Origin: an uncultured beta proteobacterium
GTDB lineage: Bacteria; Pseudomonadota; Gammaproteobacteria; Burkholderiales; Burkholderiaceae_C
Length of the DNA: 38,976 bases
Reading direction: 5' to 3'
Assembly: GCA_903954045.1 (NCBI GenBank)
Contig: CAJBMJ010000058.1
Coordinates: forward strand, 1 to 38,976
The translations under genes and the position numbers were made by a program. Below, in pieces: positions 11,198 to 30,673 of this stretch. Below the pieces are notes generated by a model. The model was not told the origin of the DNA, did no database searches, and saw nothing but the letters and a program-made list of their open reading frames with translations. Numbering within the stretch: position 1 is the stretch's first letter; the number at the start of each line of letters is the position of its first letter.

Positions 11198-11213
11198 TGG
11201 CACTTTTAATGCT
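11198..11213 (+). promoter_or_regulatory. Candidate sigma-54 (-24/-12) promoter TGGCACttttaATGCTG
   Basis: Exact TGGCAC -24 box and GG-N10-GC spacing in the intergenic region upstream of the 11399 gene. Confidence 0.5.
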
Positions 11214-11398
11214 GTAGGCAGCACTTCTCACATGCATGTGCAACACATTGCCCATGCAGTCGATTCAGTGGTGTGGCGCGCAGTTTGGATGCCGGAGGTC
11301 GCATAATGCTCAGACTTGGCCGTGCGCGGACACAACCAGGCGATGAATGCATATTTCTTTAGTTGGCACTGGTTCAAGATAATTGGAATGGAGACGCG

Positions 11399-13105
11399 AT
11401 GAGTGGGGAACTTGAAAATATCATTGTGCTAACCAATTATCGTGATATTCCGCCTGCGATATTGGTTACTAAAGGGTTGTCAAATTTCCGCGTTATTACC
11501 CATGACCCGCATGTGGTGGATCTGGCTGCAGCGCAGGGGTTGGGTTCCGTTGAGCTCGTGAATTGGGAAGGCTGTCCTGATTTTTCCGGAATTGTGGATG
11601 AAGTGACTGCCGCACTGGAGTCCGCCGAAACCGAACTTGCCATTGCAGCACGCCGGACGCACCCGGAGGTATCTGTTCAGGCTTGGCAGTACTGGAGTTT
11701 GAGCCACATATTCATGATATTTATCTGGTACCGCGGAATGTGGCGGGATCTGCCTAAGAATCCCGATGCCACCTATTATGTTTTTATCTATGACAATGTG
11801 GATTCCTTGCCCGGCTGGAATTTTTTGTCTGCGCTGATGCTATTAGAAGTGCTGACTAATGCTGGCATCAAGTTCTCGGCGTACAGTTATGGCAAAGACG
11901 CAAAGTCACTTGAATACAAAATTCCGGATTTGTCGAAAATAAACTCGACAGATTCCAAAGAATACCTGTTAACCCACATTCCAACATGCTCCTACGATAG
12001 CGTGTATTTCAATGAGGAGATTCTGGCATCAGGCAAAGGGGTTATCAATCTGGAGTCTGCGTTGTTTAATGTGCCTGTCCTGGTTGGGCAATCTCTGTCG
12101 TTGATTGACGCGGACCAGACGCTTCAATCGTTCCCGCACGATACTCAGCAGCGCATTCTTGCGTTTGTGCAGGATATTCAAATTGTTTTGAGTGGTATTT
12201 TTGGGAAAAATATCCGGAGTGTGGTTTTCGCCGAAAGGCAGGTTAACCATATTGCGCGGGCGTTTCAGGCGCAAATGGTTTTTTACCACTCTCAAGTAAA
12301 TCACCTGACCAGTTTAAAGCCATCAAAAATACTGCTGTCGGACCACGATACGGCCATACACGGACCACTCATCTCCTACGCGCAATTGCATAGTATTCCC
12401 GTGGTCCTGATTCCGCATTCCAAACGTACTAATGCCCTGCCGTACCACTATGACAATATCGTGTGTCTGCATCACCCGATGCAAAGTGCAGTTATATGTA
12501 ATGGCAAGGGAACTGCATTATTGAGTCTTGCAATGTGCTATCCGGAAGTGCTTCAGGGCAGCAGCACTTCCTCGCGTCTGGGGAGCATCGGAATTCTGCT
12601 CAATGAGTTGTGTTGCTGCGATCTTGGCATTTACTACGCCAGCATCACACCATACACCGAGGGTTTGGCAGAAATTGCCCGGTGGTGTGACGCTCATGGC
12701 GTGAGGCTGAACATCCGGTGCAGGCCGAATTCCCCTTTGTTGGCCTTGCTTTCCGAGGCAACGGGACTGGCCGTGGATCAACTGGACCACTCCAGACGGA
12801 TTGCGCTGGATGATTTTGCCGGCGGCATCGATCTGTGCCTGATGTACGGCTCGCCCACATCCGGCGTCATCAATTTTCTGCAGAAGTCCAAGCCTGTGAT
12901 TGGCACGGTTTCTCAACCGCTGGCCTCTGTAGAGTCATCGACGGTGAGCGCGGATATCGTGCCATGTCACGGAATACGGGAGACACTGGATTTGTTGACG
13001 TCCTTTTATTCCGATCCTGCGGTATTTCTCCAGTTCCGAAACAGGCAATTCAGCCGGTATGTTGCCGGATTTTCCGAAAGTCATCCGTTGCGTAAATTCT
13101 TATGA
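11399..13105 (+). CDS. Uncharacterised protein, possible GT-B-like glycosyltransferase in a nonulosonic-acid cluster
   Basis: Long ORF with ATG at 11399 (track start 11363 is TTG). C-terminal half has KILLSDHDTAIHGPLISYAQLHSIPVVLIPHSKR and GGIDLCLMYGSPTSGVINFLQKSKPVIGTV, resembling GT-B donor-binding halves. No specific family recognised. Confidence 0.5.
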   Translation: MSGELENIIVLTNYRDIPPAILVTKGLSNFRVITHDPHVVDLAAAQGLGSVELVNWEGCPDFSGIVDEVTAALESAETELAIAARRTHPEVSVQAWQYWSLSHIFMIFIWYRGMWRDLPKNPDATYYVFIYDNVDSLPGWNFLSALMLLEVLTNAGIKFSAYSYGKDAKSLEYKIPDLSKINSTDSKEYLLTHIPTCSYDSVYFNEEILASGKGVINLESALFNVPVLVGQSLSLIDADQTLQSFPHDTQQRILAFVQDIQIVLSGIFGKNIRSVVFAERQVNHIARAFQAQMVFYHSQVNHLTSLKPSKILLSDHDTAIHGPLISYAQLHSIPVVLIPHSKRTNALPYHYDNIVCLHHPMQSAVICNGKGTALLSLAMCYPEVLQGSSTSSRLGSIGILLNELCCCDLGIYYASITPYTEGLAEIARWCDAHGVRLNIRCRPNSPLLALLSEATGLAVDQLDHSRRIALDDFAGGIDLCLMYGSPTSGVINFLQKSKPVIGTVSQPLASVESSTVSADIVPCHGIRETLDLLTSFYSDPAVFLQFRNRQFSRYVAGFSESHPLRKFL

Positions 13106-28314: not shown

Positions 28315-29684
28315 ATATCACCATTGTGGGAACCGGTTACGTGGGGCTGGTATCGGGAGCATGTTTTGCCGATGTCGGAAATTCTGTGCTTTGCCTGGAC
28401 TTGGATGCAACCAAAGTTGCGGCACTGCGCAGCGGCGAGATACCCATCCATGAACCGGGACTCGAAAGCATCGTGCATCGCAACGTAGCTGCCGGCCGAC
28501 TCGGCTTTTCCACCGACTATGCGACTGCAGTCCACCATGCCAGCGTTATTTTCATGGCTGTGGGCACGCCTCCCGATGAAGACGGCAGTGCCGATCTGAC
28601 GCACATTCTGGCGGCGGCAAGAAGTGTCGGGCAATGGATGACTGGTCCACTGGTCGTCGTCAATAAGTCGACGGTGCCCGTCGGTACGGCAGACGCAGTG
28701 AGCAAGACCATTGCGGATGAACTCGCAGCGCGCGGAAAGCAATGGTCATTTTCCGTGATCAGCAATCCGGAGTTCTTGAAAGAGGGCGCGGCCGTAGATG
28801 ATTTCATGCGCCCCGATCGCGTCATCGTGGGCAGCAATGACCCGCAGGCCACCAGGCTGATGCGGCAGCTCTATGCACCGTTCAATCGCAGCAATGACCG
28901 TCTGATTGAAATGGATGTGCGAAGTGCAGAACTCACCAAGTACGCAGCCAATTCCATGCTTGCGGCGCGCATCAGTTTCATGAACGAACTGGCCAACCTG
29001 GCAGAAGACCTGGGTGCGGACATCGAGTCGGTTCGCGTGGGTATTGGGTCCGATCCCCGCATAGGGCCTCAATTTTTGTATCCGGGCATGGGCTACGGCG
29101 GCTCCTGCTTTCCAAAAGATGTCAAAGCGCTCATCAAGACCGGACGGGACAAAGGTCATGCACTCCAGTTGCTGCAGGCCGTTGAGTCGGTGAACCACGC
29201 ACAAAAAGACGTCTTGTTTCGCAAGATCAGTGGTTTTTTTGGCGGAGACGATGCTTTGGCCGGGAAATCGATTGCCATTTGGGGTCTGGCGTTCAAGCCC
29301 AATACCGATGACATGCGTGAGGCCCCCAGCCTGCAATTAATACGCCGGCTTGTGGCGGCGGGTTGCCGCGTCCGTGCCTATGACCCCGTGGTCAATCAGA
29401 CTGCCATGGCCCTTTTGAAGGCCGAACATGGTGAAGAGATTTGCAAGAAGTTGATCACCATGGTTGCGACGGCCACCGATGCCTTGAAAGGCGCTGATGT
29501 GCTTGCTATCGCGACGGAGTGGAAAGAGTTCCGCTCGCCGGACTTTGACCTGATGGCGCGTCAATTGAAGGACAAGGTGATTTTTGATGGTCGCAACATG
29601 TACGACCCTGCAGTGGTGAGCGCAGCAGGCCTGAATTACCGAGGGATCGGCCGCACAGGAACTGCCCCAGCAGGCGCGCCATGA
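28311..29684 (+). CDS. ugd: UDP-glucose 6-dehydrogenase (UDP-glucose/GDP-mannose dehydrogenase family)
   Basis: [91 protein letters not shown]. ATGA overlap fixes the start at 28311. Confidence 0.93.
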   Translation: [457 protein letters not shown]

Positions 29685-30673
29685 CCAGTGAAGGTGATCC
29701 CGTACTGGTGACTGGAGCTGCCGGTTTCATTGGCAGTTTTGTTTGCAGAAAACTCGCTGATAGAGGAATGCATGTCGTTGGATGCGACAACTTCAATGCC
29801 TATTACGACCCCCGGCTCAAACATGACAGGGTGCAGGCCCTGCTGGCGCCCGCCGGCGTTGAATGCCACCCGGTGGAGCTTTCGTCGTCGGCGCAGGTGA
29901 ATCAACTGTTTGCCCGCGTCCGGCCCCGGCGGGTGATACATCTGGCGGCGCAGGCGGGTGTGCGGTATTCCATTGATAACCCTGCAGCCTACTTTCAGTC
30001 CAACCTGCTTGCCTTCGGCAATATGCTTGAGGCCTGCAGGCATCAGTCCGTCGAGCATCTGCTGTACGCCAGCAGCAGCAGCGTCTATGGGGGCAACATT
30101 AAGGTGCCATTCCATGAAGAGGACAGCACCGATAACCCCGTATCGCTGTATGCGGCCACGAAAAAGGCTAATGAATTGATGGCGAGTTCTTACAGTCACC
30201 TGTACCAGATTCCCTGCACTGGGTTGCGCTTTTTTACGGTGTACGGACCCTGGGGCCGCCCGGATATGGCGTATTTCAGTTTCGCGAAGAAGATGCTGGC
30301 CGGGGCGGTCTTGCCGGTGTTTGCGCAAGGCCGGTTGCTGCGGGACTTTACCTATATCGATGACATTGTGGAAGGCGTCGTGCGACTGCTGGACAAGCCT
30401 ACACCTGCCAGCGCCGGCAAGCCACCCGCTGCCGTGTTCAATATAGGAAATCATCAGCCTGTCATGGTGCTGGATTTCATCGCAACCCTTGAGAAGATTC
30501 TGGGTGTGAGTGCCCGAATGGAATTCTTGCCAATGCAGGCCGGAGACGTGCCTGCAACCTGTGCCGATACCGAGAAGTTGCGTAACTGGATTGGCTTTGC
30601 TCCAGCAACGCATCTGGAGGACGGCTTGCGCAGTTTCGCCAACTGGTATGTACCGTGGTCGCGCGGCAGGTAA
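29681..30673 (+). CDS. NAD-dependent epimerase, UDP-glucuronate 4-epimerase-like
   Basis: VTGAAGFIGSFVCRKLADRGMHVVGCDNFNAYYDPRLKHDR, HLAAQAGVRYSIDNPAAYFQSNLLAFGNMLEAC, YASSSSVYG, YAATKKANELMASSYSHLYQIPCTGLRFFTVYGPWGRPDMAYF. Confidence 0.9.
   Translation: MTSEGDPVLVTGAAGFIGSFVCRKLADRGMHVVGCDNFNAYYDPRLKHDRVQALLAPAGVECHPVELSSSAQVNQLFARVRPRRVIHLAAQAGVRYSIDNPAAYFQSNLLAFGNMLEACRHQSVEHLLYASSSSVYGGNIKVPFHEEDSTDNPVSLYAATKKANELMASSYSHLYQIPCTGLRFFTVYGPWGRPDMAYFSFAKKMLAGAVLPVFAQGRLLRDFTYIDDIVEGVVRLLDKPTPASAGKPPAAVFNIGNHQPVMVLDFIATLEKILGVSARMEFLPMQAGDVPATCADTEKLRNWIGFAPATHLEDGLRSFANWYVPWSRGR

Follow-up and report, generated by a model that had tools for sequence, protein, structure and literature searches.

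How does a bacterium complete a sugar of the pseudaminic acid (Pse) type if the operon that should make it lacks the acetyltransferase PseH? The question is raised by a gene cluster in the genome of an uncultured betaproteobacterium of the lineage Burkholderiaceae_C (assembly GCA_903954045.1; 4.4 Mb in 605 contigs). The stretch of DNA that was analysed, here called the window, comprises 38,976 nucleotides and represents contig CAJBMJ010000058.1 or its start. The explanation that we favour, with moderate confidence, is that the cluster produces a cytidine monophosphate (CMP)-activated Pse-type sugar in which acetylation by PseH is replaced by the amide ligation of a purpose-made acid.

A probable pseudaminic acid operon without PseH

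Sixteen genes on the plus strand (11363–30673) overlap or almost do so. The original prediction, made from the sequence alone, described co-directional, mostly overlapping genes of the PseC, PseG, NeuB, and SpsF types with a PseB gene on the other strand, interleaved with an aldo/keto reductase (AKR), a HemL-like enzyme, three methyltransferases (MT1–MT3), a thiamine pyrophosphate (TPP) enzyme, a short-chain dehydrogenase/reductase (SDR), an ATP-grasp protein, and a GH57-like protein. Open reading frames and profile matches bear out this layout:

10033..11049, minus strand: PseB, UDP-GlcNAc 4,6-dehydratase (5-inverting); TIGR03589, 522.5 bits (cut-off 407.75)
11363..13105, plus strand: g580, opens the operon, putative glycosyltransferase; no family match
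13102..14259, plus strand: PseC, 4-aminotransferase; TIGR03588, 492 bits (cut-off 423.5)
14256..15143, plus strand: AKR of the AKR-SpsF-HemL set; PF00248
15348..16127, plus strand: SpsF-type cytidylyltransferase (CMP activation); PF02348 (CTP_transf_3), 100.7 bits
16124..17452, plus strand: HemL-like class-III pyridoxal phosphate enzyme (aminotransferase); PF00202; TIGR00713, 191 bits (under cut-off 527)
17457..18389, plus strand: MT1, constant part of the cassette; PF13489
18377..19546, plus strand: MT2, resembles sugar C-methyltransferases, by size a candidate for SfmD; PF13489
19550..20752, plus strand: MT3, methyltransferase with an N-terminal domain that matches no family, a second candidate for SfmD; PF13847/PF08241 at 239–337
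20787..22508, plus strand: acetolactate-synthase-like TPP enzyme, corresponds to SfmB in domain and size; PF02775/02776/00205; TIGR00118, 414 bits (under cut-off 538)
22487..23239, plus strand: FabG-like SDR, corresponds to SfmC in domain and size; PF13561, 209 bits
23235..24455, plus strand: putative ATP-grasp amide ligase, proposed to stand in for PseH, corresponds to SfmE in domain and size; LAL_C2 and ATP-grasp
24452..25312, plus strand: short NeuB, 286 aa, corresponds to SfmA in domain and size; PF03102, 209 bits
25302..26324, plus strand: PseG-like UDP-sugar hydrolase; TIGR03590, 39 bits (under cut-off 153.55)
26305..28314, plus strand: GH57-like protein, constant partner; PF03065, 50 bits
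28311..29684, plus strand: UDP-glucose 6-dehydrogenase family (UGD); TIGR03026, 442 bits (cut-off 190)
29681..30673, plus strand: GalE-like epimerase; PF01370, 185 bits

With the canonical CMP-pseudaminic acid pathway of Campylobacter and Helicobacter (PseB-C-H-G-I-F), the window shares PseB and PseC, which both exceed the curated equivalog cut-offs, as well as PseG-like and NeuB-family proteins. By contrast, its operon has neither PseH nor PseF, its NeuB is short and scores under the PseI cut-off, and an ATP-grasp protein and putative acid-making enzymes are present instead of the acetyltransferase. No open reading frame of the operon matched a GNAT family in profile searches, as predicted, and the best PseH match in the whole source genome scored 36.9 bits, where 93.1 are required; three weak GNAT-like matches are located outside the operon. 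PseH exceeded the cut-off in 1 of 50 genomes with a short NeuB but in 15 of 61 genomes of Pseudomonadota with a canonical PseI (Fisher p 0.0007), two samples that also differ in taxonomy. The comparison supports the absence of PseH but cannot prove it, because the PseH model is insensitive even among genomes with canonical PseI.

The short NeuB is the single NeuB gene of the source genome. Counted from its ATG, the sequence stops at the end of the catalytic barrel, without the C-terminal cap domain, and scores under the cut-offs of both equivalogs (NeuB, 180 bits against 400; PseI, 169.9 against 340.25). Its AlphaFold2 model (predicted local distance difference test [pLDDT] 94) matches the fold of NeuB/PseI and of 6ncs, a Leptospira NeuB of solved structure that is also short (285–290 residues). 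The C-terminal antifreeze-like domain of meningococcal NeuB bears Arg314, a residue that holds the substrate's N-acetyl group in position (PMC6795526); by analogy, the missing cap domain would fit a substrate with a different N-acyl group, which is only suggestive. The PseG-like protein scores weakly, and its place beside NeuB is conserved across loci. In the GH57-like protein, E124, D223, and E225 are invariant in 28 alignment rows, and the putative catalytic Glu and Asp of this constant cassette partner are conserved.

The candidate for the replacement of PseH is the ATP-grasp protein. Its AlphaFold2 model (pLDDT 96; one row from a plasmid record was left out of the structure-prediction input) matches the fold of the L-amino acid ligase 3vot (TM 0.87), and residues of the ATP-grasp type are invariant in an alignment of 33 homologues.

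Together, these enzymes suggest the following route. PseB and PseC, assigned by family cut-offs, would form UDP-4-amino-4,6-dideoxy-L-AltNAc, while the TPP enzyme and the SDR would make a hydroxylated carboxylic acid that is methylated by at least one of the methyltransferases. The ATP-grasp protein would convert the carboxylate of this acid to an acyl phosphate and join it in an amide to the 4-amine (later N7) of the sugar, as suggested by its fold, the missing GNAT protein, and the glycan of Shewanella described below. Judging by their families, PseG would then strip UDP, the short NeuB would condense the product with phosphoenolpyruvate, and the SpsF-type enzyme would add CMP. The L-amino-acid-ligase-like ATP-grasp protein, the missing GNAT, and the Shewanella precedent also make the originally proposed sugar of the Pse branch, methylated and with an N-acyl group other than acetyl, the best-supported inference.

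MT1 shares 43% identity with its homolog in Solidesulfovibrio and 55–70% with those of close relatives, regardless of the acid module; MT2 has a weak match in PDB to the sugar 3-C-methyltransferase 5t64 (E 6e-4); and MT3 is 41.5% identical over its full length to a protein of Solidesulfovibrio. The N-terminal domain of MT3 (~230 aa) has no family match and appears nucleotidyltransferase-like by eye.

Precedent in Shewanella oneidensis

The layout of the operon is not unique; it extends a system already described, the flagellin modification operon sfmABCDE (SO_3261–SO_3265) of Shewanella oneidensis. According to the study (PMC3765264), sfmABCDE encodes a NeuB of 290 aa, a TPP enzyme of 581 aa, an SDR of 255 aa, an S-adenosylmethionine-dependent methyltransferase of 395 aa, and an ATP-grasp protein of 412 aa, and the organism possesses PseB and PseC, whereas PseH, PseG, PseI, and PseF were not clearly identified. 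All five functions are present in the operon of the window, with matching sizes (286, 573, 250, 389–400, and ~406 aa). Beyond the sfm operon, the window contains PseC, a PseG-like protein, the AKR-SpsF-HemL set, GH57, and two more methyltransferases; it also differs in its ALTTAQ-repeat protein and type I secretion system (T1SS) neighbours and in the lack of Maf.

The flagellins of S. oneidensis carry a 274-Da mono-N-acetylated Pse-like sugar with a basic nitrogen (an amine) and a second, nitrogen-free moiety of 236, 250, or 264 Da (C9H16O7, C10H18O7, C11H20O7; O-methyl groups), and single deletions of sfmA–D abolished swimming in soft agar, deletion of sfmE reduced it, and all changed the flagellin mass (PMC3765264). 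If the second moiety is an acyl group, the increment C9H16O7 would by arithmetic derive from an acid C9H18O8 with one C=O, i.e., an open-chain polyhydroxy acid. We infer that this moiety is amide-linked, a reading not met in the consulted parts of PMC3765264, and that its loss as a neutral lactone would leave the observed free amine.

A further glycan for comparison occurs on FlaB of Treponema denticola, with a mass of 450.2 Da (cited in PMC9481697). Compared by mass, it arithmetically fits the 274-Da core plus C7H12O5. The C7H12O5 part is reportedly a 2-methoxy-4,5,6-trihydroxyhexanoyl group.

Distribution and exchange of acid-making modules

A scan of the genome collection with the C-terminal part of NeuB yielded 240 loci, and the analysis covered the 80 best; many of these end at contig borders, and the gene counts are minima. 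They stem from Alpha-, Beta-, and Gammaproteobacteria, Chlorobi, Desulfobacterota, Verrucomicrobia, Acidobacteria, Firmicutes, Chloroflexi, Gemmatimonadetes, Myxococcota, and Bdellovibrio, many of them from metagenome bins (a locus labelled Bifidobacterium is probably mis-binned). The conserved neighbourhood, proposed as a check of the original prediction, is evident in most of these loci and spans about ten phyla, with an ATP-grasp protein in at least 56, an SDR in at least 51, GH57 in at least 49, MT1 in at least 44, PseB in at least 37, and PseC in at least 35 loci. Among 398 sampled genomes of Pseudomonadota, the short NeuB was present in 4 (including the source genome), compared with 61 that have a canonical PseI.

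The genes near the ATP-grasp protein vary among these loci. Some encode an acetolactate-synthase-like TPP enzyme or transketolase halves, together with an SDR; others encode a glucuronate isomerase (UxaC, over its NCBIfam equivalog cut-off) with an SDR and a TylF methyltransferase (L018, L022, L023, L032), a KduI/IolB-like protein with two SDRs (L020, L025, L027), a mannitol-dehydrogenase-like (MtlD) and an inositol-phosphatase-like protein (L021, L048), or Gfo/Idh/MocA oxidoreductases (L019, L038, L061). In L029 and, besides a TPP enzyme, in L096, an iron alcohol dehydrogenase accompanies a phosphonopyruvate-decarboxylase-like pair. UxaC and the mannitol-dehydrogenase family belong to uronate-to-aldonate metabolism, and UxaC plus a reductase yields an aldonate, which is why the variable slot is read as an acid-maker.

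Among loci with an identified module and a NeuB at least 72% identical to that of the window, the ATP-grasp protein shares 61–70% identity with its homolog in the window if it is accompanied by a TPP enzyme or transketolase plus SDR (n = 7) but only 27–40% if it is accompanied by other modules (n = 11; Mann-Whitney p 0.0005), whereas NeuB identity is alike in both groups (p 0.49); these p values are descriptive, since the loci lack independence and were grouped after the data had been viewed. In the ATP-grasp tree, the UxaC, KduI, and MtlD loci and two of the three Gfo loci form clades with a support of 100, and the two-state module changes 3 times on this tree but 7 times on the NeuB tree. 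By these comparisons, the genes beside the ATP-grasp protein are exchanged as a module, which the ATP-grasp protein follows and NeuB does not; as far as the literature shows, this is new.

Acid-maker and ATP-grasp protein would accordingly form a swappable module atop a constant Pse core. Tentatively, this view may be extended to a combinatorial system in which the core (PseB, PseC, short NeuB, PseG, MT1, and GH57), exchangeable acid/ATP-grasp modules, and two activation modules (PseF, or AKR-SpsF with HemL) would give rise to diverse N7-acylated nonulosonic acids in about ten phyla, in some lineages on type-I-secreted ALTTAQ proteins instead of flagellin and with a further, undescribed sugar change added by AKR/HemL.

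In several alphaproteobacterial loci (L060, L064, L071, L086, L095), sulfotransferase families match eight otherwise unassigned open reading frames in or beside the cassettes, which are probably the ~280-aa group of these loci; the sugar may be sulfated there.

A probable alternative activation set

The absence of a classical PseF, also part of the original prediction, holds for the operon, whose cytidylyltransferase is of the SpsF type. The remaining CTP_transf_3 genes of the source genome sit on other contigs, and the strong match among these is probably KdsB. Among the 80 loci, HemL occurs in at least 13 and PseF in at least 7, never both in the same locus, and the AKR adjoins SpsF in 11 of the 15 other loci that have it. 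In the window, the AKR starts at the ATG at 14256 and is separated from SpsF by a gap of ~200 bp. By their distribution, the AKR-SpsF-HemL set alternates with PseF, and AKR and the HemL-like enzyme would be part of an alternative to PseF. Because SpsF alone can serve as CMP-nonulosonate synthetase, AKR and the HemL-like enzyme must do something further; by analogy with Kdo8N synthesis, which uses an oxidase-aminotransferase pair, they could introduce another amino group.

In many alphaproteobacterial cassettes (L042, L058, L060, and others), SpsF and PseG are apparently fused into one open reading frame, as judged by frames scoring with both profiles.

The original prediction did not foresee that the system has a precedent in Shewanella, is widely distributed, and exchanges its acid module as well as its activation genes (AKR-SpsF-HemL for PseF).

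Candidate target proteins

Upstream of the operon, the window contains genes that suggest a target other than flagellin:

7..1206, plus strand: ALTTAQ-repeat protein, truncated by the contig start, candidate glycoprotein substrate; PF20080, 68 bits
1273..3120, plus strand: TPR-GT41 protein glycosyltransferase with tetratricopeptide repeats (TPR), candidate transferase; PF13844, 284 bits, plus TPR
5129..10019, plus strand: T1SS (ABC transporter with C39-like domain, HlyD, TolC-type protein); Pfam

In the source genome, TPR-GT41 and/or g580 would most likely transfer the sugar to the secreted ALTTAQ-repeat protein before type I export, with flagellin as a second possible target. No match to g580 was found in Pfam, NCBIfam, or PDB; a homolog (29% identity) adjoins the cassette and the T1SS in Pelomonas. 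One side of the cassette of Pelomonas sp. UHG3 carries homologs of TPR-GT41 (49%), ABC transporter, HlyD, and g580, and the other side a 3039-aa ALTTAQ protein. In a genome of Methylococcaceae, homologs of ALTTAQ and TPR-GT41 lie beside GH57. Overall, TPR-GT41 homologs adjoin the cassette in two other genomes (49% and 34%), and an ALTTAQ protein does so in L035/L114 and Pelomonas. The three placements differ in their local arrangement, which makes a functional link between the cassette and ALTTAQ/TPR-GT41 likely on the basis of gene neighbourhood. As far as the literature shows, no type-I-secreted repeat protein has been linked to such a system before.

Flagellin is the competing target, a possibility that deserves consideration although we rate it below the ALTTAQ protein, and one that is compatible with the proposed pathway. 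The original prediction placed the operon next to flagellar genes and named flagellin or another surface protein as the target. Of this, fliE/fliF/fliG are indeed present 5 kb downstream of the operon, but all three flagellin-family matches of the source genome sit on other contigs and a search of this genome for Maf found none, so that flagellin is less supported here than the other surface protein, represented by the ALTTAQ protein that flanks the operon together with TPR-GT41 and T1SS (all three also in Pelomonas; ALTTAQ and TPR-GT41 in Methylococcaceae). In relatives, a flagellin target is plausible: in 25 of 50 genomes, a flagellin-family gene (Pfam Flagellin_N, which includes hook-junction proteins) is located no more than 20 kb from the short NeuB, far above chance expectation, and the sugar of S. 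oneidensis sits on flagellin (PMC3765264). By contrast, 8 of 51 genomes searched had no flagellin match, although some may be incomplete, which argues that the sugar is not flagellar only. Caulobacter FlmG combines TPR with a GT-B glycosyltransferase and acts on flagellins, which are modified via a six-enzyme Pse pathway that includes the acetyltransferase FlmH (PMC7591256). Both genomes lack Maf and have a TPR plus GT-B transferase alongside a Pse pathway, but the TPR-GT41 of the window adjoins the ALTTAQ protein and T1SS; the activity of FlmG on flagellin leaves both targets possible.

In ~16 alphaproteobacterial loci (L064–L097), the cassette is adjoined by a ~506-aa TPR protein and a ~918-aa protein with SBBP-type repeats, a possible pair of transferase and substrate.

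Alternative explanations for the sugar

Several observations weigh against amide ligation of a purpose-made acid. Deletion of sfmB, sfmC, or sfmD strips more modification than deletion of sfmE, whose mutant retains motility in liquid and its filament (PMC3765264); if acid-making were their sole role, the sfmB–D mutants should resemble the sfmE mutant. The correspondence between the window and Sfm was judged by domains and sizes alone, the formula of the 236–264-Da moiety equally fits a deoxy-sugar, and the substrate of the ATP-grasp protein cannot be read from its sequence. The insensitive PseH model makes absence of PseH elsewhere in the genome a weak argument, and the ATP-grasp tree has long branches and results from a short search. 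Regarding the target, ALTTAQ and the cassette were not found together in five other genomes that have both, among the matches listed, and the protein substrates are candidates only.

Some of these points would be accommodated if the TPP enzyme, the SDR, and the methyltransferases built a second, branched or chain-extended sugar (YerE-type) that is attached glycosidically, with a minor role for the ATP-grasp protein, e.g., addition of an amino acid. Acetolactate-synthase-like enzymes can branch sugars, and both the severity of the sfmB–D phenotypes and the compatibility of the 236-Da formula with a deoxy-sugar speak for this explanation. It is nevertheless unlikely, because it has to explain the second nitrogen of the 274-Da unit, which has one N-acetyl group and a basic nitrogen, and is at odds with the tracking of the neighbouring module by the ATP-grasp sequence and with the uronate/aldonate enzymes in some modules.

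More doubtful still is the view that the genome makes ordinary Pse5Ac7Ac by means of a diverged acetyltransferase encoded outside the operon, the extra genes serving another glycan. In its favour, most genomes with canonical PseI escape the PseH model, weak GNAT-like matches exist, and the UGD and GalE-like genes suggest a second sugar. Against it, gene clusters of about ten phyla place the ATP-grasp protein beside the short NeuB, PseH passes its cut-off far less often among genomes with a short NeuB, and this NeuB falls outside the PseI equivalog. The idea that the short NeuB builds the acyl acid while a second NeuB makes the sugar was rejected as the principal explanation, given one NeuB-family gene in the source genome and in 29 of 50 relatives. 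Chance clustering of the operon genes is excluded because the same subfamily is conserved in 80 loci of about ten phyla, mostly in similar clusters.

If the amide-ligation pathway is correct, it would explain how PseH-less bacteria complete a pseudaminic-acid sugar and provide a mechanism for the unexplained sfm operon of Shewanella. Families of N-acyl groups would become predictable from gene content, and a swappable module of acid-maker and ligase would represent a clean route to surface glycan diversity and offer a set of amide ligases for glyco-engineering. A type-I-secreted repeat protein as substrate would take protein glycosylation with nonulosonic acids beyond flagellin.

Neighbouring glycan genes

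The UGD and the GalE-like epimerase at the end of the operon probably serve another sugar. Between the operon and fliE, the opposite strand (30730–35535) encodes a DUF5672 protein, an FkbM methyltransferase, an O-FucT-like protein of 674 aa, and a GT4 protein, a group that is probably involved in another glycan.

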